Shown here piece after piece: positions 407 through 63,751 of a stretch of DNA of 64,000 nt (the stretch's first letter is position 1; every line of letters starts with the position of its first letter). Source of the stretch: Antedon mediterranea (lineage: Eukaryota; Echinodermata; Crinoidea; Comatulida; Antedonidae); assembly GCF_964355755.1 (NCBI RefSeq), contig NC_092676.1:23232288-23296287 (forward strand), written 5' to 3'. A program made the position numbers and the translations under genes. The notes below the pieces were generated by a model. The model worked only from the letters and a program-made list of their open reading frames with translations. It ran no database searches and was not told where the DNA came from.

Positions 407-2810
407 GTGAGCCTATTAAAAAATGTGATCTTTTTTGCTAATACCTGTAGTTCGATAACATTAGTTCTACCAAACAGATGGTTAAAAATGATGTGAATTT
501 GTAGCCTATTTGGGTTTTTTTTTTTTCATTTAAATTGCAATAAAGCTAACTAGATAATTTTATTTTATGTATTTAGTCACATGTGACCTGTTAGGTGGTA
601 ATTCCAGGGATACAGGGGCTATTTTGTGAACCAGGGTAACCCCCTAATCGTCTCTAATAATGAACTGGGTTCTTTAAAGTACACACAAACACACTGTGTA
701 CACAGGACCTACAGTTTATAGCCCTTATCCAAGAAGACTTGTTCCACCACCAAAACTGGGAGCGAGTCAGCCTAAAACCTTTGCCAATATGGTTTTCTCT
801 TTTGGTATAGTTAATGTGCCTTAACCGCTCAGCCATTTGACTCACTCAGTATTTATTACCTAATTTAATGAATTACTTATTTTCAGGTACCGATTACTAA
901 ACAATTCAGAAGATTTGAAACTTAAGAAAGTATATTTCTTTTGGATTTGTCCGGATACAAACGCATTTGAATGGTTCTCGGAGTTACTTGAACGATTTGA
1001 AAGCGATATGATTGAGAAAGGTCACGCAAACTTCTTAAATTATAATATTTATTTGACAAGAGGTTGGAGTTCGAAGCAGGTATGTTTATTTATATTAATA
1101 TCTGTATATACTAATATTAATACCGAGTTGAAACACAGGTTCTCGTCAGATTACCAAAGTAAGCAACGTTGAGCCCAGTTGCTTTCTGGAAGGGAGACCA
1201 TCTGGGAAAGCGCGTCAGGTGCTGTATATACCAGAGAGTGATGGTATAATGATAATATCGGACTAGCATGTGATAGGCATGGGTTAAAGCCTATCTGTAC
1301 CATACTGATTGTATCCTTAGGCAAGATTTTTTATTCTCATTGGATGGGATGTAAAGCCGTTGGTCCTGTGTATATGTTGCATGTTAAAGTAATGGTACAC
1401 TATTCTAAAAAGAGTTGGAGATAGTCTCTTGGTGTGGTTACAAGCTTTTTTGCAGGTGTGAAAAGGGTATTAGAGTGAGAATTTTCACTCCCAACACAAG
1501 TGTCTTTAAAGGAAGGTACAGTAACTCCAAATAAAGAGAGATAAAGAGAGAATTTGGCATTTTGATCTATTTAATCATTTTCAAGAATCTGAATATAGAA
1601 CATAGTATAATACAATTATATATAACTTTTTCTTTTTTTAGGCTAAAAATATTTATTTATTAGAAAATGAAAACACAGATGCAATTACAGGATTAAGACA
1701 AAAGACACACTATGGTCGTCCCAAATGGACGAGTATTTTTCCGGAGATTGCCAATGAAAACCAAGGGTAAGTTTTTTTACTTTTTATAAAAAATAGGCAC
1801 CATCTTCGCTGCTTCTGGATATTGCCATTTTTAAAATGTTTTATTTTTTATGTTGTTTTTTAATCTGTTATATACTATAGAAGTTCAAACACACATTTAT
1901 CTTTATATTACTTACCATTTAAAGATATATTGTTTCCCTAAAAAAAAATTTTTTTTTAATATTCCATTTTAATTCCAAACCTGGGCAGATGAAGCTCGTT
2001 AGCCGTGATTACGGCAATTCTTCTAGGAGAAGGACACTCTGACATAACACCTACGACCCAAGGACCTCGCTGTCACCGTCTCAGTTTTTCTAGGCTATGG
2101 CAGATGAACCCTGGGTTTAAAGGAGTGCACTGCGCACACTGTACTCCACTTTAAAACCCCATTGCGCAGGCGTGAAGGACAAGTCACCGTCCTATATTTT
2201 ATATATATTTAAAAGAAAAAAGAGAAAAAACCAAAATGCTGAACCACAACCACAAGAGTTGCACCCGACATTCCTCTGCAGCCATTGTGGACGGACATGC
2301 CTTTCTCGCATCGGACTTGTAAGCCACAAACGAGCCTGTGACAGACATGGACAAACCCCTTCATAAAATCTTCGTTCGCGAAGCAAAGCCAAGAAGAAGA
2401 AATAGTTATTAACTTTAAAAAAATTGGATTAATAAAAAATTATTTACCTGAAAAAATAGAAAAGAGTCAAATTGTTGCTTTTTGGTTAAATGTAACAGTT
2501 TATTTTGTCTTTTTATAAGCAAAACCATTGTTTTTATATTTGTTATGATAACTTTGTTAAAACTACAAAATAATCTAAAGTCAGATTTTTTTGGGAAAAA
2601 TACATCTTTAAACATTTAAATGTATCCTTATAATCAGCGAATTAATATTTTTAGTATTATTATTTTATTTATTTTCATAGGATTGACACAGGTGTATTTT
2701 ACTGTGGTCCAAGTGGCTTGTCGGAAATTCTACATCGTAACTGTGAACTACACTCCACCATTTCTCGTGAGGCTGGTTGTCGATTTTTTTACAATAAAGA
2801 AAACTTTTAA
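287..2810 (+). CDS. NADPH oxidase, NOX2-like, C-terminal part (partial gene)
   Basis: Four exons (287-406, 887-1079, 1642-1766, 2681-2810) join in frame with GT/AG borders into about 188 residues ending at TAA 2808-2810. NOX enzymes pass electrons from cytosolic NADPH through FAD and two hemes across the membrane to oxygen, giving superoxide. Seen here is the cytosolic NADPH-binding lobe: DGPFGTAS, then [15 protein letters not shown] (nucleotide binding), YFFWICPD, the FYCGPSGL motif, and a C-terminus FFYNKENF that closely resembles the end of vertebrate NOX2. The haem membrane domain and FAD site lie upstream, outside the window. There are no EF hands in the visible part. The NOX1/2/3 subgroup is likely from the C-terminus, but an exact orthologue cannot be assigned. 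Introns hold a tRNA SINE, a 5S-derived SINE and a LINE tail. Confidence 0.93.
590..850 (-). mobile_element. tRNA-derived SINE, family 1
   Basis: On the minus strand the element opens with a tRNA-like A box (TGGCTGAGCGGTTAAGG, Ser/Leu-like). A body follows containing TCTTCTTGGATAAGGGCTAT and AGGTCCTGTGTACAC. The same body occurs in a second copy at 15461-15700 on the other strand, which shows dispersal. It sits inside the NOX intron 407-886 and is diverged, so probably old. Confidence 0.7.
887..1079 (+). CDS. NOX exon B
   Basis: The acceptor TTTTCAG ends at 886 and the donor GTATGT starts at 1080. After completing the split Trp it encodes 64 residues, [22 protein letters not shown] and so on to [12 protein letters not shown], and ends in phase 0. 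The FWICPD and FEWFSELL segments are typical of the NOX2 dehydrogenase lobe. Confidence 0.92.
1155..1500 (+). mobile_element. 5S rRNA-derived SINE (SINE3-like)
   Basis: From about 1157 the sequence follows the 3' half of metazoan 5S rRNA: TAAGCAACGTTGAGCC, GGAAGGGAGACC, CTGGGAAA and GGTGCTGTA in the right order and spacing. The internal promoter box C region (GGGAGACC) is intact. A non-5S body follows, including ATCCTTAGGCAAGA and GGTGTGAAAAGGGTAT. It lies in the NOX intron 1080-1641. The alternative, a bare 5S pseudogene, fits less well because the 3' body recurs near position 140. Confidence 0.7.
1642..1766 (+). CDS. NOX exon C
   Basis: The acceptor CTTTTTTTAG ends at 1641 and the donor GTAAGT starts at 1767. 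It encodes [20 protein letters not shown] followed by [21 protein letters not shown], leaving two bases (GG). THYGRPKW matches the conserved segment of NOX1/2/3 proteins. Confidence 0.92.
1975..2403 (+). mobile_element. 3' end of a non-LTR retrotransposon (LINE), 5'-truncated
   Basis: An open stretch at 2240-2366 encodes [20 protein letters not shown] and then RAC. This Cys/His knuckle with SRIGL-SH-RAC is typical of the C-terminus of LINE reverse-transcriptase proteins. It is followed at once by a short 3' tail ending AAGCCAAGAAGAAGAA. Upstream sequence is non-coding as it stands, and there is no reverse transcriptase domain. It is a dead 5'-truncated copy in the last NOX intron. Confidence 0.75.
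2437..2614 (-). repeat. Dispersed repeat family D, copy 1
   Basis: The minus-strand reading resembles six other places in the window. Shared words include AAAAAGACAAAATAAAC, AACCAAAA, TTTTTCAGGTAAAT and a final GGACAATACATCTTTAAA-like end. No coding capacity and no clear terminal repeats were found. This copy lies in the last NOX intron, directly after the LINE tail. Confidence 0.55.
2681..2810 (+). CDS. NOX terminal coding exon
   Basis: The acceptor TTTTCATAG ends at 2680. The first G completes Gly, then [20 protein letters not shown] and a tail ending [14 protein letters not shown], with TAA at 2808-2810. CGPSGL is the C-terminal nucleotide-contact motif of NOX enzymes. Ending in KENF without extension is as in NOX2. 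Confidence 0.93.
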
Positions 2811-6180: not shown

Positions 6181-6459
6181 ATGTTCATTACAATTTGCTA
6201 CATATACCTTACGTATTCTGACAACCGGTTGAAGAAAAGTCAATTAAGTGCGCTAGTGGAGATGTTTTGTAGCCATATACCAAGATCCAGTCTCTTGATT
6301 CAACGAGTTGTCCTCAGCCATTCGCTTGGCAGAATGCCAAGGATTCTCAAACCTGGAGCATTAAGTATATCCGGCTTTTGTGACGATGCAATGGAGTCAA
6401 TCACACTGGAAACACTGATGGAAAAGGGTGGAAAACAGGTCCTTGAAATTTCTCCAAAG
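6181..6459 (+). CDS. HLCS: HLCS coding exon 1
   Basis: Encodes residues 1-93, MFITICYIYLTYSDNRL through KGGKQVLEISPK, with donor GTAGTT at 6460 in phase 0. ATG 6181 was chosen because MFITICYIYL resembles the hydrophobic start of extended vertebrate HLCS. The frame stays open upstream to about 6130 without another ATG, so the exon could begin with an acceptor upstream. Confidence 0.8.
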
Positions 6460-9400
6460 GTAGTTAAAATATATTATCTCGTATATAAAGTATCTTCATT
6501 TTTTTCTGAGAAACAAACAAGGGGCAATATGTACAGACAGTATAGTCAATGAGTGACTAAGTACTGTATTTAGGAGACACTGCTATTCAGGGGACACTTT
6601 CGTAAGAAACAAGTGTGCGGCAATATGTACACACATTATAGTCAACAACTATTTAGGGGACACCTGATTACGGGACACTTTCGTGAGAAGTGGTAATGTG
6701 TACTCACACTAAGTTATGACTTTTAGGTGCCACCATATTTAAAGGACCGACACACTCTGTTGGATACCGTTCTACTGTATTGCATAATAATTATTATTAT
6801 TAATTTAATTTATCTGCTATTGATTTTTACATTGCAACATGAACAATTACAAATTTTAATTTTTTAATATTTATTTCTTACTTTTTATTACAGCAATATG
6901 TTGACTTATCCCATGACTGGACGCTATTCATTGGTTCATCATCACCAGTAATTAAAAAGTGCAACCCGACAAACAAATTAACTAACCAATCAGAGATGTA
7001 TTTATTAATAGAAGCCACTCCTCCGTACATAGATAGAAATGGACATGTACATCTTAGAAAAGTACCGGCTGATCAAGCTGTTAAATTGTCGCGGTTGACA
7101 AAGCCAATTGCCTGGAAGTCAGGAGAGCCATTTGGAATCGTTGTGAAAGCTAGCGTGGAACAGTGTGCTAAAACTGGAATGGCGTTCTTAGATGGCGTTC
7201 TGGAACTTGATGACGGGTTATTGGTTGAGCATATAGCAAGTGAGTTTTTATTTTGTTGCATTATCTATAACAAGTCAGTTTTATTTGTGATACAGGTTTG
7301 ATGTAGTTTTACAGTAAATCTAATATTATTTCTAAATGCCTTATTCTCGAAGATAATATTGTTATGGATTTAATTGTGTGTGGTAAATGTACTGAATTTA
7401 CAATGAAAATAAGTTGTAATTTGAACCTGTGGTCAATTTACGCCGTCAAGTACGTCACAGCAAAATTTACACCATATATATCATTTTCCTGACGACGGCC
7501 TGCTGAGGGAACCTAAGTTGAGATCAATAATTAAAATTATTTTCATTTCAGCTGTTGGAATTCGAGGCAGAGCACAAAGTCTTCTATCCAGAAAAGCTTC
7601 TCTACAACAACAAGCACTTTTACAGAGCCAGCTAAGCACAACAGATCACCAGCCAAACCAAATAGATCACCAGCCAAACCCAACAGATCACCAGCCAAGC
7701 ACAACAGATCAGCAGCCAAACCCAACAGGTCACCAGCCAAACACAACAGATCACCAGCCAAACACAACAGATCACCAGCCAAACCCAACAGATCACCAGC
7801 CAAACCCAACAGATCACCAGCCAAACACAACAGATCACCAGCCAAACACAACAGATCACCAGCCAAACCCAACAAATCACCAGCCAAACCCAACAGATCA
7901 CCAGCCAAACCCAACAGATCACCAGCCAAACCCAACAGATCACCAGACTAGTAGTCATAAAGTGCCAAATGTGTTGGTGTATACAGGTACAGTATAGTTG
8001 ACTCACTCAATTGTACTAACCTACATTTTACAAAAGTACAGTATATGCATTTTCCCTGCCAATAATTTGAGTTCTTATCAGACTGTCTGGTGCAACAAAC
8101 TTTAGTACTCCTATGTAATAATTACTGACAGCAACTTTGGTTATGTTAAATACTACTAACTATAAACTATGATTGTTACTGTATGTCTTTATGATTTAAA
8201 TTCAGTATCTGTATCTGTATTATGTAGAAAATCAGCATTGTTGGAAATGATTGATAAATTATTTACTTGAATATTTTCAGATAGTGATGACAAAGAACCA
8301 GATCATTATCTGATGGTTAGAGAAGTATTGCAACAATGTCTTCATCCAGATCACTATGTCATCTACCATTTAACCAAATCTCAGATTCTGAATCACCCGT
8401 GGATTGACAACACTGCCCTCTTAGTTTTATCTTCCGAACTTGAAATGAAAGAATCCGTCGAAGCAACCAACAAAATTAAGTGTTTCTTGGATTCTGGAGG
8501 CAAAGTTATGAATTTTTCTTCTAGACTCTATTTACCAGACTGTATCAGCATTAAAAAGCAGAACTGGAATGCATCTATTATTGATGTGGAATATTATAAT
8601 AAATCTTTAGAAAATACAAAGTCTTTAAAATGTCTGCACAGAGGCTATTTATTTAGCATTAACACGAGTCCAGAGCAGAATGGTACAGATTTAAGTATAC
8701 TTGCAAAATGTGAAGATCAACCAGTTATTATTGAGATCAAGTCAAAAGGTCATGGAACAGCACTTCTATGCCAGGTTTAAAATATTTGTTATCAGGATTT
8801 GTTTTTTAAATAAGTCTAAATTAAACATGATTTAAAAAATATATCATGTATGATACCACTGAACTTTCAAGTTAAAATAACGATTTTTGAGGCATTTGAT
8901 AAACAGGCAAACTGCATTAAAATGTCTTGACATGTTTCGAGAAACTATTCTCATCATCAGAACAGAAAACAATGCCTAGAGTGCTTATATACCAATAGGA
9001 CAGGTTGTATGTAAATGAAGAAGTATCATCTACATACATTATCATGCTAATTACTTACTCATTTACATACAACATGTCCTATTGGTATATAAGTACTCTA
9101 GGCATTGTTTTCTGTTCTAATGATGAGAATAGTTTCGCGAAACATGTCAAGACATTTTAAGGCAGTTTGTCTGTTTATCAAATGCCTCACAATCGATTTT
9201 TAAAATGTTTTTAAATTCGTTTTTTACAGGTACATTTGGATGTAGATCCATCAAAAGACAAGACAGTTAATTCGGAAGAATTTGCTGAGCTCAAGAAATC
9301 TAACCAGACTCGATATGAAGTGCTTTCAGACTTGTTCTCTCGTCTCGGTGTTGTATGCTCACTGGGAATAACTCCTTCTATTACTCCATGTTACATACAT

Positions 9401-12400
9401 TCCAATTCAGGTGTAAGTATACTACTGTATGAATTTAATTATTATGCCTAATGTTGTGAAACCTCTAAGTCTGTACATATTATTACCCTGGTCATTTTTG
9501 ACAAAACATGTATGGAAACATACTCCCATAATGCAGGTAGGAATCAGCGCAATATTGTGTCTTGACCTTACCCGGTACCCATTTGTACACCTGGGTTTGA
9601 GAGAAGCAAATTCAAGTAAAGTGTCTTGCCTAAGGATGCAAGCAATGCGACAAAAACAGTCTGAAACCCAAAGTTAAGTGTTATAGTAACCCCAATTCGC
9701 CAGCACAGATAACTATATTTAATGCATCTTTGCCTTGTCTGTTTTTAACATCTCGCTATGGCCATGTATATTGATTCACAATTTGTTTATTTAGAGAGCA
9801 CAAGACAGTTTTCTAAACACAGTCAAAGGCCGTTTAAAAGAAGGATGTCTACACTCCAGGCTTTCCACTTTACAGTTTGTCGACACTTTCCTTTTGGATA
9901 AAGAGATAGATTCAGAATGTATACCAGTAATTACAACACATCCAAAAGCCGTGAACTTCGACATGGAAGCATATCAGAATCACCTGCACACCAAAGTGTT
10001 AGGAAACGTTGTTCTGTATTCAGAAGTTATTCCAACAACAATGACCTTGTTTGAAGGGTATGAAATTATGATTAAGAAGACAACCCTTTTACATTGTCTA
10101 TCAAAACTCAGTGACAGTATTTAACACTTTAGTGAGATATTTCCTTAAATTATTTCACATAACTCAATATATATTTTAGTATTTACCTTAAATTGTATTC
10201 ACTATATAAGAGATTTTCTTAATAGTAAGGGTAAGTGTTTCTCTTAGCCTAAGTATGAATGGTGAATACGGCCACTGGTTTACATACACATAAATCAACA
10301 CCTGCTGTTATGTATGCCATGCGCTCTGATGTTTGTAAACTCAGGAGTTTTGGTAGATGTTATGAATTACATTGGTGTATAGAAAGTTTATTTTCGTATT
10401 TTGCAAATGCTCTTCTTTGTGCATCAAATAGCAGTTCAGAGGATGCTAACTAACACATTTTTTCTCAGTTTGTTGAGATAATACATGAGTATTGAACAAA
10501 ATTCCTAATGATAATAAGTATACATCTTCTTATTGCTGTCAATTGTTCATTTGTTATTACTTTTTTTTTATAGATTTATGTTTCAAGTTGAGGAGAATGT
10601 AGGAACGGTTGCCATAGCTACAAGAATGACTCAAGGAAAAGGTTGAGTAATTACATTTTGTATTTTGGCATCCCCATCTTTACCATTCTTTCATTGTCAT
10701 CATATTTGGCATCATTGTTATTATCTTTGTTATGATTGTCATCATTGCAGTGTGTTGAACGTTGGACTACTGATCGTGGGTCCGAATCCAACGCTTATCG
10801 CATTGCTTGTATTCTTGGGCAAGACTCGCCAAGTGTACAGATGACCACTTGGTAAAGGTCAAGACACAACTTTGCGCTGATTAATAACTGCATTATTATA
10901 TGGGAGTAGTTTGTATACAGTACATGTTTGATCCAAAAATGACTGCGGTAATAATATGTACAATACAGCGCTTAGAGCTTTTACAACATTGGGCATTTAT
11001 CCAAGATATTATTATTATTATAATTGGAACTGCAAAAACTAACTTGGTTTCTTTCATTTTTAGGACGAGGTGGAAACGCTTGGATATCTCCAATAGGTTG
11101 TGCCATGTTTTCTGTCCATGTACGCATTCCTATCCAATCTAACCTTGGACAACGTCTACCCTTTCTGCAGCACATTGCATCTGCTGCAGTGGTTGAGGCT
11201 GTAAGATCCTTAGATGGCTATGAGGTAATAATAGAACATTGATATGTGTGAATAATGCACAGTGTTAAATAGTTATTCTAAAAATAGCTATTCTAAAAAT
11301 TCATGATCAAATAGAATACAGTATAGCTAATCTAAAAATAGTCTTTCTAAAAATAGCTGTTCTAAAAATAGCCATTCTAAAAATAGCCATTCTGAAAACA
11401 GCCGTTCTAAAAATAGCTATTCTAGAAATATCCGTTTTAAATTGAGGATAGTGATACGGAAGAAAAGAAATCGGTAATAATACAATTTAATTTAAAATTG
11501 TCATAATAGGCATGATTATAAGAACATTATCTGTTTTATCTAAAAAAAAATATAATAAAATCTTTTTTAGAATATTGATCTGCGGCTGAAATGGCCAAAT
11601 GACATTTACTATGGTGACAAGATGAAGCTGGGAGGTGTGATTGTCAATTCCTGTTGCTGGGAAAATAAATTTCATGCCATCATAGGTTAGTAGTGACATT
11701 TTCTTTTACTTTAATGCATCCTTTTAATATCAATAATTCTTGGGATTTAAGTTGTTACTGCTATATTTTCTATCTATACTTGTAAAAAGGTAGAGAATTT
11801 CAAAATTTGTAATGAGAAAAAACAAATTTCAATACATATATCTTGGTATCTTTATTACACTGAAGCTGAATTGCTGCAAGGTAAAATTTAAATATAAAAA
11901 CTTGTTATATACAGGCTATTCTTGCTCATTTCAAGACATCAATTTCTACTAGGTCTATGCTAAAAGTCCCAGTACCAATAAGCATAAAATCATTATATTA
12001 TTAAATGATCTATTTTTTTCTAGGGTGTGGTTTTAACGTTAACAACAGTGACCCAACGATATGCATCAATGACCTCGTAGCCAGACACAACCACGAGTGT
12101 GATACGAACCTGTTACCTTTAACAAGAGAGTTGCTGATTGCACGAACATTGACGTACATAGAAAGAATTATTGAAAACTTTCAATTATATGGAAAAGACT
12201 CTTTTCTACCCATTTACTACAAACATTGGTTACATAGGTAATTCAAGATGTTTTATCTGAAAAGTATGATATTGTTATGAAAGTAATTTTACAAATCAAC
12301 AACAACAAAATTAACCGCTCAGAAACTGAGCAATATACTTATAATAAATATAATAATATACTTATACAAAATAATATTTCTCCCTTATTGAAGTTATAGA

Positions 12401-12788
12401 TAACTTAAGATCTATTAGGCTTTGGGACATCACCAATATATTGATCTAAAAAAAATCATCTTAAGACAAAAAAATAAAAAATAAACTAAGTAATATTTTG
12501 GTAATGAAAATGATTTGATAAGTTTATTCTAAGTATAATTATTTATTAGAAATAATCAAACCAACTTTTTGAAGTAAAAACATATTAATTGACTTTACTT
12601 TCCCAAATTACAGTGACATGCAAGTGCACCTGGAAAAAGAAGATGGACCAGAGGTTGAAATTGTTGGACTTGATGATATGGGATTTTTAGCGGTCAAGAA
12701 CCAGTCTGGTCAAGTAGTCAGTGTCCAACCGGATGGAAATAGCTTTGACATGATGAAGAACCTACTAGTGACAAAAGCAAGACCATAA
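6181..12788 (+). CDS. HLCS: Holocarboxylase synthetase / biotin-protein ligase, complete
   Basis: Eleven exons join in frame (279, 346, 435, 494, 183, 263, 68, 161, 115, 214 and 175 nt) into 910 codons plus TAA at 12786-12788. The enzyme makes biotinyl-AMP from biotin and ATP, then links biotin to lysine of the acetyl-CoA, pyruvate, propionyl-CoA and methylcrotonyl-CoA carboxylases, in cytosol and mitochondria. Seen: the biotin/AMP-binding loop GKGRGGNAW (G690-W696), KWPND (750-754), CGFNVNNSDPTICIND, and the C-terminal cap with VEIVGLDDMGFL and QPDGNSFDM. The N-terminal half resembles the extended form of animal HLCS (MFITICYIYL start). A 15-unit heptad array occupies about residues 213-345 of exon 3. 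Downstream neighbour SIM is convergent. Confidence 0.95.
6505..6770 (+). repeat. GGGGACACTTTCGT repeats in HLCS intron 1
   Basis: About two to three imperfect units of 85 bp share GGCAATATGTACA, TATAGTCAA, TTAGGGGACAC and GGGACACTTTCGT. They fill most of the intron 6460-6893 and match the repeat near 3955-4150. Non-coding. Confidence 0.55.
6894..7239 (+). CDS. HLCS: HLCS coding exon 2
   Basis: The acceptor TTATTACAG ends at 6893 and the donor GTGAGT starts at 7240. Encodes residues 94-208, QYVDLSHDWTLFIGSSSP to LDDGLLVEHIA, and leaves one base (A) that joins CT of exon 3 to give Thr209. This is the non-catalytic N-terminal region. The following intron (7240-7551) shows no feature. Confidence 0.9.
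7552..7986 (+). CDS. HLCS: HLCS coding exon 3 with heptapeptide array
   Basis: The acceptor TTTCATTTCAG ends at 7551 and the donor GTACAG starts at 7987. It begins VGIRGRAQSLLSRKASLQQQ, then carries 15 heptads of the type (P/T)TDHQPN, then SHKVPNVLVYT, and ends with one base that makes Asp354 with exon 4. PNVLVYT aligns with the PNILLYVG segment of human HLCS, so the array sits just before a conserved segment and in frame with it. Confidence 0.9.
7638..7952 (+). repeat. Coding minisatellite, 15 x 21 bp, in HLCS exon 3
   Basis: Unit of 21 bp built on CAGATCACCAGCCAAACC. Fifteen in-frame copies encode (P/T)(T/I)DHQPN with few changes (IDHQPN, TDQQPN, TGHQPN, TNHQPN). No copy contains a stop or a frameshift. 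The low divergence suggests recent turnover by unequal exchange or slippage. Confidence 0.93.
8281..8774 (+). CDS. HLCS: HLCS coding exon 4
   Basis: The acceptor ATATTTTCAG ends at 8280 and the donor GTTTAA starts at 8775. Encodes Asp354 (split) and residues 355-518: SDDKEPDHYLMVREVLQQCL, YVIYHLTKSQILNHPWIDN, ALLVLSS, GGKVMNFSS and HGTALLCQ. These match human HLCS blocks (YILYHL, PWTDNCLLLV, GGKVLGLSS, EAVLCQ). Confidence 0.93.
8881..9195. mobile_element. Foldback element (long inverted repeat) in HLCS intron 4
   Basis: Two arms of about 140 bp (8881-9025 and 9055-9195) are reverse complements at roughly 94 percent identity by eye, separated by a short AT-rich loop. Each arm carries GAGGCATTTGATAAACAG, TGTCTTGACATGTTTCG and ACAATGCCTAGAGT. 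It is a MITE-like foldback that would form one long hairpin in RNA. It fills most of the intron 8775-9229. Confidence 0.85.
9230..9412 (+). CDS. HLCS: HLCS coding exon 5
   Basis: The acceptor TTTTTTACAG ends at 9229. It encodes residues 519-579: VHLDVDPSKDKTVNSEEFAE, LKKSNQTRYEVLSDLFSRLG, and on to SNSG. Two donors overlap (GTGTAAGT). Using GTAAGT at 9413 keeps the frame with exon 6, while the GTG at 9411 would not. VHLDV and KSNQTRYEVL match VHLEL and KSSNFRRYEVL of human HLCS. Confidence 0.9.
9531..9690 (+). mobile_element. SINE-like fragment in HLCS intron 5
   Basis: GGTACCCATTTGTACACCTG, followed by AAGTGTCTTGCCTAAGGATG and GCAAGC, resembles the core of common aquatic-animal SINEs. No tRNA head or terminal repeat is visible. 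It lies in the intron 9413-9794. Confidence 0.45.
9795..10057 (+). CDS. HLCS: HLCS coding exon 6
   Basis: The acceptor TTTATTTAG ends at 9794 and the donor GTATGA starts at 10058. Encodes residues 580-666: RAQDSFLNTVKGRLKEG, SRLSTLQFVDTFL, CIPVITTHPKAVNFDMEAYQ, TKVLGNVVLYSEVIPTTMTL and FE, leaving GG. This is the junction into the ligase domain; human has [20 protein letters not shown]. Confidence 0.92.
10574..10641 (+). CDS. HLCS: HLCS coding exon 7
   Basis: A 68-nt exon, with acceptor TTTTATAG ending at 10573 and donor GTTGAG at 10642. Encodes Gly667 (split) to Lys689: FMFQVEENVGTVAIATRMTQ then GK. It enters the conserved substrate loop QGKGRGG, which is split by the next intron. Confidence 0.93.
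10745..11022 (+). mobile_element. tRNA-derived SINE in HLCS intron 7
   Basis: A B-box-like GGGTCCGAATCCAAC lies near 10780, followed by CTTGGGCAAGACTCGCC, and then, near the 3' end, ACAGCGCTTAGAGC with a terminal (ATT)n run at about 11010. This is the usual order head, core, 3' tail of SINEs mobilised by a LINE. The A box is not clear. It occupies most of the intron 10642-11063. Confidence 0.55.
11064..11224 (+). CDS. HLCS: HLCS coding exon 8 (biotin/AMP loop)
   Basis: The acceptor ATTTTTAG ends at 11063 and the donor GTAATA starts at 11225, phase 0. Encodes Gly690 (split) to Glu743: RGGNAWISPIGCAMFS, VHVRIPIQSNLGQRLPFLQH and ASAAVVEAVRSLDGYE. GRGGNAW is the signature loop that closes over biotinyl-AMP in biotin-protein ligases. 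Confidence 0.95.
11266..11440 (+). repeat. Short tandem repeat TTCTAAAAATAGC in HLCS intron 8
   Basis: About ten diverged copies of a 14-bp unit (TTCTAAAAATAGCC/T) lie head to tail, with one interruption near 11310-11330. Non-coding. They fill half of the intron 11225-11570. Confidence 0.8.
11571..11685 (+). CDS. HLCS: HLCS coding exon 9
   Basis: The acceptor CTTTTTTAG ends at 11570 and the donor GTTAGT starts at 11686. Encodes residues 744-781: NIDLRLKWPNDIYYGDKMKL and GGVIVNSCCWENKFHAII, leaving one base. KWPND and K-GG-V are active-site blocks of the ligase. The next intron (11686-12023) shows no feature. Confidence 0.95.
12024..12237 (+). CDS. HLCS: HLCS coding exon 10
   Basis: The acceptor TTTTTCTAG ends at 12023 and the donor GTAATT starts at 12238. 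Encodes Gly782 (split) to His852: CGFNVNNSDPTICINDLVAR, LTRELLIARTLTYIERIIEN and PIYYKHWLH. Human HLCS has CGFNVTNSNPTICINDLI. The next intron (12238-12613) is plain AT-rich sequence. Confidence 0.95.
12614..12788 (+). CDS. HLCS: HLCS terminal coding exon
   Basis: The acceptor AATTACAG ends at 12613. Encodes Ser853 (split) to Pro910 and TAA at 12786-12788: DMQVHLEKEDGPEVEIVGLD, DMGFLAVKNQSGQVVSVQPD and GNSFDMMKNLLVTKARP. This is the C-terminal SH3-like cap of biotin-protein ligases. Confidence 0.95.
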
Positions 12789-12836
12789 ATAGAGGTAAAA
12801 TAATATTTTTTAGAGGTAAAATAAGGCTTTCAAATT

Positions 12837-13183
12837 CAAATTCAAGCCTAGGAATAGCTGTTTATATGTACTGTAGACTAGGCCTAGGAATAACTGAGTG
12901 CAGACTAGGCCTAGGGATATCTGTGAATTCAGACTAGGCCTAGGGATATCTGTGAATTCAGACTAGGCCTAGGGATATCTGTGAATTCAGACTAGGCCTA
13001 GGGATATCTGTGAATTCAGACTAGGCCTAGGGATATCTGTGAATTCAGACTAGGCCTAGGGATATCTGTGAATTCAGACTAGGCCTAGGGATATCTGTGA
13101 ATTCAGACTAGGCCTAGGGATATCTGTGAAAGCAGACTACTGTAGGCCTAGCAATATCTGAAAATGCAGTCTAGGCCTAGTTC
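12837..13183 (+). repeat. 29-bp minisatellite made of nested palindromes
   Basis: Eight near-perfect tandem copies of a 29-bp unit run from 12903 to 13134, with degenerate copies on both sides. Each unit contains three palindromes in order: CTAGGCCTAG, GATATC and GAATTC. It starts about 50 bp after the HLCS stop, so it is probably in the HLCS 3' UTR. Confidence 0.92.
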
Positions 13184-14117
13184 TTCCCTGAGCATTTGTC
13201 ATCTGAATCCTCTTAATCACCCTTCTCTTTTATAAACGTTTTGTCGTAAATTTTTTGCAATGTCATTGTTGTTTGTATCAACTGTTGTCCGCGCAATATA
13301 AAATATTTATCATCGAGGGGAAATTGTTAGTACCACAAGTCAACCATCTTCGGAACGATATAGTATACACAAAATTAACCATCGGGTAAATGTGATAGCG
13401 GGGTCATAGATTAACTATTATAACTATTATCCTACGGGACAGTGTGATATGTACAACATTTACCATCAGGGTAAAAATTGATTACACCACAATCATTCGA
13501 TCTACGGACTGGTGCAATATACTGTATATACCATTAGTCAACCATTAGTTTTACAAACCGCATGATTACAGAATTAAGCATCAGGCATTTATTTATCGCA
13601 CCACCAATGTGTTTTAATATCCAATGAAATTTGTAAATTTTAATTTTTTTCCATCTAGTCTGAGTCAGCTAAAATTCGTTGAAGTCACCACCTTTGGGAA
13701 CTAAATGCACTTGACCTCTCTGGATCAACTTTTCAAATAATTAAAACAATATTTCAGTGTGACTTACATGGAAAACTTAATATCATTCAAAAAAATTCAC
13801 TTAAAAATAGTCTGATTATAAAATGACATACATGTTATCTATTTGAGTACAGACATAGTTTGTTATTGAAAAAAAAAGAACATATCTATTCTGACATTGT
13901 AAAGCGCAGTATTTATTTGAACTTTTGTGAACTATCTGACCGTGTTCTTTCATGGATATCTATATAAAAAATACGTTGGATGAAAGAATACAGTGTTTCC
14001 TCGCCACAGAATGTATGTATACTGTACATACTGTATATCTTTTATTATATGGGCTTTTATTCAGCATTCTTTGCTTCATCTGTTTTTTCCAGTAATTTTG
14101 TTTGTCTTATAACATAT

Positions 14118-14165
14118 AAATAGTGTAGCTGTAGCTTAGTGGTTAATGTGCTTGCCTATTCTTCT
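14118..14165 (+). mobile_element. Fragment of tRNA-derived SINE family 2 (head only)
   Basis: TGTAGCTGTAGCTTAGTGG and TTAATGTGCTTGCCT match the tRNA-like head of the elements at 52778 and 59076. The B box and body are missing. Confidence 0.5.
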
Positions 14166-14599
14166 GTTTTTCCTTTATCTAGAATCTCAAGCCAAATTTT
14201 CAATTTACAGCAAGAAAATATTCTCAGAACATTTTGTTTTTCCTTATTCTTTTTTATTTTGCTTTTTCACTGTCAGTGTAGAGTGAGACTTTTCGCATAA
14301 TACTTGCTTTACTGTCATAACATGTTTCAGCAATGTTTCTAAGTATTATTTCTTCTTAGCTGTTTCATTGGCTTGTAGAATAGTGCTGTAGAATTAAATC
14401 TCCAATGTCCACATAGTAGATGTTGATTAAAGTAAATTTTTCCCTTCGTTTTATCTTACAGATTAAAAAAAAAGTTATAATAAACTTTTTTTCGTGGATG
14501 TTTGAACTCTTCGGTGAGTCCTTTAATACATAATGAAACGTGTTCTTGCCAGAAATATAGAAAAATATTAGCTTTTTAATGTTTTATTGTAAAGCATGC

Positions 14600-14785
14600 T
14601 AAAGCTTTGTCTACAAAATCACTATCAAACTATTTTGACAACAAGTTTTATGTGCCCAAATAGTGCAGTGATATGCCCAAATATGGCAGTGATATGCCCA
14701 AATATGGCAGTGATATGACATTGTGTCCATATATGGGCACATCGCATTTTTTTGTCAAATAAAGTTAGTAGTAGACAGAGCTTTA
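14600..14785. mobile_element. MITE family A, copy 1
   Basis: Terminal inverted repeats of the type TAAAGCTTTGTCTAC and GTAGACAGAGCTTTA. The inside has three tandem copies of ATATGCCCAAATATGGCAGT and an opposed TCCATATATGGGCACAT. The same ends occur at 16006, 17231, 22221 and 32872. Non-coding, so moved by a transposase encoded elsewhere. Confidence 0.85.
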
Positions 14786-15460
14786 CATTTACATTACAAA
14801 CACAACACCTAAATGCCTTTATATTTCATCATAATACATATTATTTATTTGTACAGTATATTTTAAATTATTCTAGTATTAAAAAACAAATTAATGTGCA
14901 ATATACAAACACATTCCTATGTTTAACATTTTAACTGACTGACATACATTGACAAGTTAATGTACCTCTTTTCCTCTGAATTGGTCATTGGGAACACAAT
15001 ACACTCACTACAGCCATGCAATACATAATTACTATTATTATTAAGTCATATTTTGAAAATAAATAATTAAAATAGCAGCTAAATAGGAAAAGGTATATTG
15101 TCACAGTATAGATGAATTCCTTTAAAAGTAATTTGCAATATACCTTTAATTTTATTGGGTTATCGTTTTATATTACAACCAAATCAAGTGAGCATAGTAT
15201 ATTGAGTTGCAGTTAATATTTTGAGTTTTAAAATTGGTACTGCACACATATTAATCAAGAACTATCTCTAGTCTATAACTAAATCATGGTTAATGGTAAC
15301 AAAAGTCAAGTAAATTGTTGTAAAAAAAAATCTAAAATAATAAGTGTGGCAAATAGTGTGTATTCATGCAACATAATTTATGTTATTTTTTAAATCTGAT
15401 CAGTCAAAAAGGTTATTTTTTGAGAATGTTTTTCAAATAATGCTTTATACTATTAAAACG

Positions 15461-15700
15461 AGTGACTGACTGAGCGGTTAAGATATTAGAACCGTAGCCA
15501 TAGCAAGGGTTCGAGGCTCACCCGCTCCATGGTTCTGGGGGTATAACAAATCTTCTTGGATAAGGACTATAAACCGTAGGTCCAGTGTACACATCTAGCC
15601 ACTATCACTCACAGCCACAGCCACATAACTGGACCCTCCGGGAGACCAGTCTTTGACTGAAGAAGTCACCCATTATAAATAAATAAAAACATGCATGTTT
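15461..15700 (+). mobile_element. tRNA-derived SINE, family 1, second copy
   Basis: A tRNA-like head has A box ACTGAGCGGTTAAGA and B box GGGTTCGAGGCTC about 40 bp later. The body CTTCTTGGATAAGGACTATA and GTAGGTCCAGTGTACAC is shared with 590-850. It ends in an A-rich tail (ATAAATAAATAAAAAC). Confidence 0.75.
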
Positions 15701-16005
15701 TTGTTGTTTTTAACAACTTTTTATTTCTTTAATTTGATTTTCTTTAGTTTATATATCTTACATGTATATTGACCAGGTGTGTTTAGATTCTGGCCGGTCC
15801 TGTGGGAACGCTGAGTAATTAAGCTTGTCTTTTAGAGTATGAGGAAATCTTCAGGCCTAAGTTTATAGGCCAAATAGTTGATTGAGTTGTCAAGCTAGCT
15901 GTCCTTTTAAAACTAATTGAGGCTAAAATTAAATTAATTTTACTGTTTCCTAAAATGATATTATTTTGTGACTAGTTCATTGCTAGATTGTCCGTATATC
16001 CATCC

Positions 16006-16112
16006 TAAAGCTCTGTCTACACTATCAAAAACAATGTGATAGTGATATGACATCATAATGTCCATAATATGGGCATTTGTCACATAAAGCTTGATAGTGT
16101 AGACAGAGCTTA
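16006..16112. mobile_element. MITE family A, copy 2 (short)
   Basis: Ends TAAAGCTCTGTCTACACTAT and the inverted ATAGTGTAGACAGAGCTTA enclose a shortened inside with GTGATATGACATCAT and GGGCATTTGTCAC. This is the smallest copy, 107 bp. Confidence 0.85.
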
Positions 16113-16565
16113 ATGTTAAAAGCCGTCTATTGCAATTGTCAACTGGCTTACATACATGTAAAATTCATCCTTCACAATTTAATTTTTGTAATGTTTAAAT
16201 GACAATAGGTATTATCAGATCGTACAGTATATACCAAACTACTTTTTCCCACATGCGCTATTGTATGATGGGCCTGTTACAGTCAACAGACACGATACTG
16301 CATCATGTTTATTGTCGCTAGACATGATACTGTACTAGAACGTACTGCTTTGTCACTAGGTATGGTTTTTTTATAAACATTAATATTAACATTCAATTAG
16401 AAATAAAACATAATAATAACAAGGTTTTCGTTTTACATTTTGTTTTATTTGTTATTCTATTTCTATTTCAGTTGAAAGTTAAACAGTAACATGCAACCGT
16501 TTTATTAACGTATTAACAACAAAATATTACAAAGATAAACCGTCACATGGCCAATTAGCTGATTC

Positions 16566-16730
16566 GCTGTACTGCATCATAGGCAAGTTCTGTATTACAA
16601 TGTCATACATGTCACATGCGACTTCTGTATTATAGCCCATTAGCCTAACCCTAACCTCAATATAATACATATGAGTCATATGTGAATTATGTGACACTTT
16701 ATTACAGAATGCGCCTATGATACTGGAAAA
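16566..16730. mobile_element. Inverted-repeat element, family B, copy 1
   Basis: The left arm GTACTGCATCATAGGCAAGT followed by TCTGTATTACAATGTC is an imperfect reverse complement of the right arm GTGACACTTTATTACAGAAT followed by GCGCCTATGATACTG. A related piece occurs at 56346-56445. Non-coding MITE. Confidence 0.6.
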
Positions 16731-17230
16731 CATAATACCCATATGTGGAGATACAGTGTAGAGAATCTGGCTAAACTATAGACCATCTTTGTAATGTTTT
16801 AAAATTCAGGCGTTCCTCCAATTAAATACCAAATAATTATTTTTTAATTTAGCGTCAGATATTCCATTTTCTGTTACAGTAGAAAGTGATCCAACATTTG
16901 AGAGGATACTGCCGTATTCAATTGGAGTGCGACCTGTAATCGCCGAAGCCACAACTTATTCGTTGAGGCCTAACACAATGACATCTAAAACATATACAAT
17001 AAATTACATAAATAACCAAGGCGCTGTCATCTTAAGAAATTACATTAATTAGGCCTATTACAGTTCTCGTAAGCACTGTTTAGTATTGGCGGTGTTTTAC
17101 ATTCGCACTATGCTAGATATATTACAAGAGCTGGGCTCATAAATAATAATCAATAATGATAAAATATGGCAGAATAAAGCATAAAATAAAATACAATTTT
17201 GAAAAATTTAAATAGGTAATCTTTCAAACA

Positions 17231-17378
17231 AAAAGCTCTTTCTACACTATTAAACTTCATGTGACAATAAAGGTTATATGCCCATATATGGACACGATGA
17301 TGTCATATCATTACCATATTTGGGTATATCACTACCATTGGTCACATCATACTTTTTGATAGTGTAGACAGAGCTTAA
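17231..17378. mobile_element. MITE family A, copy 3
   Basis: Ends AAAGCTCTTTCTACACTAT and GATAGTGTAGACAGAGCTTA in inverted orientation. Inside are TATGCCCATATATGGACAC and GATGATGTCATATC, in the opposite order to copy 1. Confidence 0.85.
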
Positions 17379-17851
17379 GACACTTTATTTAGCGTTTATG
17401 TTCAGTGTCATTCAAAAACGTTTAGAAACTTTAGATTCTACGTCATTCGTTATAATCTATTAAATTATTATCTAATAATACTGTATTTTGAAAATGTAAT
17501 TGTAAATTAAATTCTAATTATGATGATACTTGACAATTATAATCGTAACCTTTTATTAAATACAAGGTGAATATGATTTATATCGGATAGGGTAGTACTG
17601 TACCAAACATAATGTTTGTAGTCGAAGGCATATTATATTGAAACCCAAAACTCTAACAATTGATAAACCTTTACAAGTTGTTAAAACATAAATTAACCCT
17701 AATTTTGTTGTCTTATCATTAGATTTGTTTTTTTCATTTTCAATGTTGGTATAAGTATCAGTACAGTACATGTCAAACACCCAAGAGAAAAACAAATATT
17801 AGCGTCAGGTAAAATATGAAAAGAAAAGATGAGTAACACCAAACTTTGAAT

Positions 17852-18125
17852 AGGTCATTTCTAGTTTTAATAAAGTTATTCACTTCCGTTAAAAAAAAAA
17901 TGGGGGCAAAATGTCACTTATAAAAAGACAAAATTAACGTTTATATTTAACCAGAACCCCGTTGTCTGATAAACAATAGACATTTTTCAGGTAAATATTT
18001 TATTTTTCGATCCAATTTTTGGTCCAAGTGACCATATTGGTAACTACTGTATTATGTGACATTAAAATGGCATATTTCAAATAATTTTTAAAGAATTATT
18101 TTATTCAGGGGGACAATACATAAAA
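17852..18125 (+). repeat. Dispersed repeat family D, copy 2
   Basis: The most complete plus-oriented copy. It runs from TAGTTTTAATAAAGTTATTC through AAAAAGACAAAATTAAC, TTTAACCAGAACCCC, TTTTTCAGGTAAAT, GATCCAATTTTTGGTC and TATTATGTGACATTAAAATG to GGGGGACAATACAT. It lies 560 bp beyond the SIM stop, possibly in its 3' UTR. Confidence 0.6.
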
Positions 18126-18686
18126 AAAAGCTGCATTCTCTACTAAACTTACTTAAACAATTGTCCATTTCTGACCAGAGATAACTAATAACTAAATTAA
18201 GAAAGTAAATATAATAAATTATTTATTACATAAGTTTCACCAAGAAATTGTATCGTTAACATCAAAACACTGAGTTGTCTAAAAACTGGATTGTATATAT
18301 TTCATCAATATTCGATACGAAAATAAACTTTCCAGTAATTATTGTGTGATATTGTTGTAAACACTTCAATCAAATTCGTAAGTAGATCATTTTACTTTCC
18401 CATCAACTACATTAAAATTAGCAGGGAAGAGTGACATTTACTCTTTCTTCGTTTTAGGTCCAATGAGAGGACCAATGTATTTTGTACTGTATTTATAGGC
18501 TACACCCTTTCAAACGAAATCTATATTATATGCCAACGACTTTTAGAGAGCGTGGACGTATGTAGTAACCACAATCATCTAAATGCAAATTAAACGTTTT
18601 ATAAAACGTCCAATAACATATATTAGACAATGGAGAGACTTTTCAACAAACTAAAAATTGAAACTTCAAAATAATATTTTATGTAC

Positions 18687-63751
<45,065 letters not shown>

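Follow-up and report, generated by a model that had tools for sequence, protein, structure and literature searches.

Ancient microsyntenic pairs and genomic regulatory blocks, as described in the available passages of PMC8851819, place a developmental transcription factor beside an unrelated housekeeping gene that has long been kept with it. According to the same passages, ambulacrarians largely retain microsyntenic blocks of bilaterian age and vertebrates lost 84% of them, which makes retention in both groups less expected for a pair than retention in ambulacrarians together with spiralians. The accessible part of the human 21q22 gene list in PMC9996016 gives SIM2 and HLCS as consecutive genes. 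In teleosts the pair may be broken, as the portion of PMC3380836 (a paper on OVOL genes) that bears on HLCS lists AMOT, REXO2, DMPK and OVOL3b as its neighbours, not SIM2. A literature search on SIM and HLCS, covering titles, the beginnings of abstracts and text passages, returned no description of an invertebrate SIM-HLCS linkage. The pair may already stand in the published lists of Irimia et al. 2012, which reportedly collect conserved ancient microsyntenic pairs.

The window analyzed here, a stretch of 64,000 nucleotides from Antedon mediterranea (C7:23,232,288-23,296,287), carries a SIM and an HLCS gene tail to tail (Table 1). Exons of both genes were chosen by conserved peptide and joined at the best-scoring in-frame GT-AG pairs, the exon ends being predicted from DNA rather than from RNA. 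In both models GT-AG is found at the junctions, the reading frame is continuous, and the outer coordinates (6181 for HLCS and 63751 for SIM) are first methionine codons. The initial annotation had placed HLCS on the plus and SIM on the minus strand, converging with 5.9 kb between the stops, and the spliced models bear this out with a distance of 5,898 bp. We take the human genes to be convergent as well. The annotation had also stated that SIM2 and HLCS are adjacent in human, which agrees with their consecutive position in the 21q22 list as far as it is available (PMC9996016). Adjacency is thus found in both of the distant lineages compared, this genome and the human list, where the pair belongs to 21q22.13.

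Table 1. Coordinates of the gene models, the intervening DNA and the chromosomal markers. Plain numbers are positions in the window.
Feature	Position	Strand	Remarks
HLCS (biotin-protein ligase)	6181-12788	+	11 coding exons, 910 aa, spliced model
HLCS exons 1-4	6181-6459, 6894-7239, 7552-7986, 8281-8774	+	
HLCS exons 5-8	9230-9412, 9795-10057, 10574-10641, 11064-11224	+	
HLCS exons 9-11	11571-11685, 12024-12237, 12614-12788	+	including stop
Spacer between stops	12789-18686		5,898 bp, ~21% matching other compared sequence (dispersed repeats and minisatellite)
SIM (single-minded bHLH-PAS factor)	63751-18687	-	8 coding exons, 788 aa, spliced model
SIM exons 1-4	63751-63577, 24836-24757, 22915-22826, 22196-22002	-	
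SIM exons 5-8	21474-21275, 21011-20905, 20562-20415, 20058-18687	-	including stop
SIM intron 1	24837-63576	-	38,740 bp
NADPH-oxidase (NOX-like), last recognised exon	864-1169	+	Pfam NAD_binding_6, E 3.9e-7
NOX-like, earlier exon	left of window, L007:9045-9194		FAD_binding_8, E 1.3e-13
DOP1	C7 7.15 Mb		16 Mb from SIM
ASCC3	C7 6.2 Mb		17 Mb from SIM; 136.4 bits to ASCC3 vs 73.5 to SNRNP200
UFL1	C7 23.98 Mb (23.975-23.977)		0.68 Mb from SIM
LCA5	C7 1.67 Mb		22 Mb from SIM; two weaker sub-cut-off matches on C5 and C2
MMS22L	C7 0.63 Mb		23 Mb from SIM
PIGP	C3		off C7; human 21q22.13 gene
VPS26C	C8		off C7; human 21q22.13 gene

The spliced HLCS product contains the biotin/lipoate ligase core, with matches over the cut-off to Pfam BPL_LplA_LipB (100 bits, E 1.3e-28) and BPL_N (39.2 bits, E 5.1e-10). 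Its weak part is BPL_C, which at 18.1 bits stays below the 21-bit cut-off of that family. When the whole genome (354 Mb on 18 contigs) was searched with PF03099, two matches were reported, both of them exons of the HLCS gene in the window. The gene spans 6.6 kb, presumably far less than its human counterpart, and its ten introns measure 294-516 bp each and 3,875 bp in sum, part of which is repeat. Exon 3 harbors a 21-bp tandem repeat (7628-7946, plus strand, 15.2 copies, 92% matches) that lies in frame and encodes units of the type N-P-T-D-H-Q-P directly before the BPL_N region; the repeat is open in all three forward frames.

The 788-aa SIM model displays the domain order of a bHLH-PAS factor, with an N-terminal bHLH (HLH, residues 5-51) followed by PAS-A (PAS, 80-140) and PAS-B (PAS_3, 242-328; PAS_11, 229-335). 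SIM_C, presumably PF06621 and a model of vertebrate tails, is absent among its Pfam matches at E values up to 0.01. Comparison with solved structures in the Protein Data Bank leaves some room for confusion with an NPAS1/3 (trachealess) or HIF gene, as no chain named SIM appears among the hits, the bHLH exon finds NPAS3 and NPAS1 as its best hits, and the PAS-A exon scores best with HIF1A. However, that exon scores 56.7 bits with HIF1A and 52.3 bits with NPAS3, about equally far from either, and clear representatives of both other families exist separately. Searched genome-wide, the PAS-A exon has three matches, namely itself once at 100% and two exons on C10 that are 48% and 55% identical. The match at C10:16.6 Mb (L028) is nearest to HIF1A, with 82.5 bits against 42.4 for NPAS1, while the one at C10:0.23 Mb (L029) is nearest to NPAS3 (52.3 bits) and NPAS1 (51.3 bits), HIF-family chains reaching at most 27.4 bits. 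The alignment of the latter exon with NPAS3 continues into a stretch rich in serine and threonine. The exon in the window aligns to NPAS3 only as two pieces flanking this stretch, the insert itself being missing. By these pairwise scores, used in place of a tree, the gene is distinct from NPAS1/3 and from HIF, and we consider a misidentification very improbable. As judged from the DNA, there appears to be only one SIM locus, the HIF-like and NPAS-like exons sitting on another chromosome, C10.

The DNA around the two genes offers little sign of further coding sequence. For none of the five open reading frames of at least 70 aa in the spacer is the codon score over the whole frame positive, and no coding-like frame of that size was found within SIM intron 1, the top score there of +1.4 falling inside a tandem repeat; in both regions smaller exons could escape such a screen. 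A gene nested in intron 1 was considered for the open reading frame at 43167-43628 and rejected, as it has no Pfam match and a codon score of -18.7. Searches of the window for Rfam families and tRNAs gave no matches. Intron 1 is most likely the home of SIM regulatory DNA, judging by its size. A 29-bp minisatellite (12875-13139, 9.2 copies, 96% matches) begins 87 bp past the HLCS stop. Three stretches of the window, at 14599-14802, 17227-17388 and 32861-33040, reach peaks of 18, 20 and 36 matches elsewhere in the compared sequence; two of the three contain a 21-bp unit, and near ASCC3 there seems, by eye, to be a long array of a similar unit. GC content of the window is 31.9%; the feather-star value in the accessible text of PMC7351957 is 33.22%, with values there called similar to hemichordate ones, and base composition therefore does not discriminate between crinoid and hemichordate. 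A search for mitochondrial COX1 gave no match.

The immediate neighbourhood was examined over 50 kb on either side by open reading frame lists, codon scores and a handful of protein searches, a depth at which small genes may be missed. A NOX-like gene ends ~5 kb upstream of HLCS. To the right of SIM there are a fasciclin-domain gene and DNA polymerase theta (POLQ); the former is the nearest recognised gene upstream of SIM, its match starting ~19 kb off. The plus strand some 20-46 kb to the left of the window carries six short coding-like stretches that resemble one another, and both of the two that were scanned match CD225, one with a score just equal to the cut-off, which suggests a putative tandem array of genes of this interferon-induced transmembrane family. 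A 227-aa plus-strand open reading frame ~25-26 kb left of the window looks by eye like a reverse-transcriptase fragment. The outer neighbours thus differ from the human ones, which are CLDN14 and RIPPLY3/PIGP, and none of the NOX-like, CD225, fasciclin and POLQ genes occurs in the 21q22.13 gene list as available from PMC9996016.

A broader view of the chromosome was obtained with eight marker families of human 21q22 and 6q14-16, chosen by their presumed human positions and, for 21q22.13, by the gene list in PMC9996016. Seven of the eight gave matches, and five of the seven marker genes identified in this way (DOP1, ASCC3, UFL1, LCA5 and MMS22L) lie on C7. Given that C7 makes up 8.6% of the genome, at least five of seven markers would fall on it by size with a binomial probability of 8.6e-5, a value that applies to hand-picked and not fully independent markers. 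Ripply had no match in the genome search and no control signal either, and weighs neither way. Two further candidates were discarded. A VPS26 exon tested on C7 proved to be VPS26A/B, not the 21q22 gene, and additional VPS26 matches at C7:2.47 and 2.40 Mb were left uncounted; likewise, a Sec63 match tested on C8 proved to be SNRNP200 and was left out of the marker set, as was a weaker one on C5.

All five markers on C7 are presumably genes of human 6q14-16, with UFL1 at 6q16.1, and we take human 21q22 to carry duplicates of DOP1 and LCA5. SIM, DOP1 and LCA5, which in human presumably have one copy on each of the two blocks, are single-locus genes here and all lie on C7, whereas PIGP and VPS26C, part of the human 21q22 block, do not. 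Since C7 holds genes of both the SIM1 and the SIM2 block, SIM and HLCS were probably co-located before SIM1 and SIM2 parted. The order of genes on C7 is widely shuffled relative to the markers. ASCC3, which presumably adjoins SIM1 in human, is far from SIM here (Table 1), although this comparison is a partial control, as the human SIM1-ASCC3 adjacency may be either old or secondary. With the order otherwise scrambled, the contact between SIM and HLCS is not explained by general collinearity or by a well-preserved region. The short distance between UFL1 and SIM indicates that a looser neighbourhood of the SIM1 side may also persist.

These observations make it probable, in our judgement, that the SIM-HLCS adjacency is ancestral and that the crinoid and human pairs share common descent. 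SIM and HLCS would then have been convergent neighbours on one ancestral chromosome before the ambulacrarian-chordate split, and the pair would be older than the SIM1/SIM2 duplication. Following the genome duplications in vertebrates, SIM2 would have stayed with HLCS in one copy and SIM1 would have been kept without HLCS in the other, the pair having outlasted the scrambling of the surrounding order. The initial annotation had likewise dated the linkage before the SIM1/SIM2 duplication. This dating is favoured by the adjacency, the one SIM locus and the presence of genes of both blocks on C7; the location of PIGP and VPS26C on other chromosomes counts against it. Altogether, the locus represents a credible instance of an ancient microsyntenic pair.

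An alternative to common descent is an independent meeting, in which the two genes, linked on an ancestral chromosome, became neighbours separately here and in vertebrates. As the two genes are on the same chromosome, such a re-meeting is less improbable than genome-wide odds imply, and it would fit the shuffled order of C7, the dispersal of the other 21q22.13 genes PIGP and VPS26C, and the different neighbours given for teleost HLCS in the relevant portion of PMC3380836. Its cost can be estimated. Using a borrowed gene count, the 26,838 genes stated for a feather star in the available text of PMC7351957, C7 at 8.6% of the genome would hold ~2,300 genes. For one named pair on such a chromosome, the chance of adjacency is ~9e-4, and that of adjacency in the matching orientation ~2e-4, values that concern a pair picked post hoc. 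The latter number speaks against coincidence, which we regard as improbable.

If the pair is ancestral, its survival asks for an explanation. The mechanism that we prefer is passive retention, which we would back with about even confidence. A harmless break between HLCS and SIM would have to hit the short spacer that separates their 3' ends. On the far side of SIM, breaks would cut the 5' flank and the long intron 1 of the gene. One side of SIM would thus be guarded by selection on its regulatory territory, and the other by small target size.

A regulatory block could have held the genes together instead, with SIM enhancers located in HLCS introns or beyond and HLCS a bystander tied to SIM. 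The make-up of the pair is typical of target and bystander, since SIM regulates development and has a 38.7-kb intron, and HLCS encodes a housekeeping enzyme; the pair also persists amid the scrambled order of C7. In composition the locus resembles the described class of such pairs (PMC8851819, passages cited above). In contrast to genomic regulatory blocks, however, the present arrangement is known from gene layout, and HLCS has scant room for large intronic enhancer arrays. The initial annotation had suggested as a possibility that SIM enhancers lie in or beyond HLCS. The anatomy does not favour a location in HLCS introns, as the ten introns are compact, total 3,875 bp and are partly repeat, compared with the long intron 1 and 5' flank of SIM itself. 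The NOX-like gene just upstream of HLCS also counts against the regulatory block, which we view as unlikely, if worth keeping in mind. A few small elements within HLCS, elements in the spacer or elements beyond HLCS are possible candidates for SIM enhancers. The accessible parts of PMC11849981 deal with chromatin of the HLCS locus in human and contain nothing on SIM2 enhancers within HLCS. A more elaborate scenario appears somewhat more doubtful still. It posits a pair of at least deuterostome, perhaps bilaterian, age, a rare survivor on the ancestral chromosome of 6q14-16 and 21q22, that is held by putative regulatory DNA of SIM located either in the spacer or toward HLCS, with the SIM1 copy having lost the arrangement through loss of HLCS. 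Were this combination of regulatory hold and HLCS loss beside SIM1 true, SIM2 and SIM1 expression would constitute a natural experiment on input from the bystander side.

An ancestral pair would imply that the SIM2-HLCS linkage in the Down syndrome region is older than vertebrates, and would anchor reconstructions of the chromosome from which human 6q14-16 and 21q22 arose by splitting. It would also offer a clean test case for the retention of neighbours, since passive and regulatory retention predict different places for SIM enhancers, with the SIM1 copy without HLCS as a built-in control.

Apart from this locus, the homeobox genes of the assembly permit a comparison of its gene order with that of other echinoderms. 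A homeodomain query gave 37 matches genome-wide, the best 14 of which were read, with gene names assigned by characteristic signatures. Twelve of these best 14 form a Hox row on C2 at 7.83-8.21 Mb. Ten genes on one strand presumably run in order from Hox1 up to the first of the posterior (11/13) genes, including Hox4 and Hox6, and beyond them lie two posterior genes arranged face to face. The matches to these outer genes, at 7,848,416 and 7,827,797, are separated from that of the tenth gene (7,895,768) by ~47 and 68 kb. The sea-urchin Hox order presumably does not fit this row. ParaHox-like genes, tentatively named, lie close together at C5:29.97-30.07 Mb. According to the available passages of PMC7351957, hemichordates have 12 Hox genes with two posterior ones inverted or moved, other echinoderm lineages lost Hox4 or Hox6, and a feather star has ten clustered Hox genes plus two posterior ones face to face, more than 360 kb away. 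The posterior genes here share the face-to-face orientation of that feather star (PMC7351957) but differ in their short distance from the cluster. The row marks the genome as that of an ambulacrarian, most likely a crinoid and less probably a hemichordate. The row is also unlike that of a brittle star, for which the accessible text of PMC11310086 reports Hox1-3 as inverted and Hox8 as moved.
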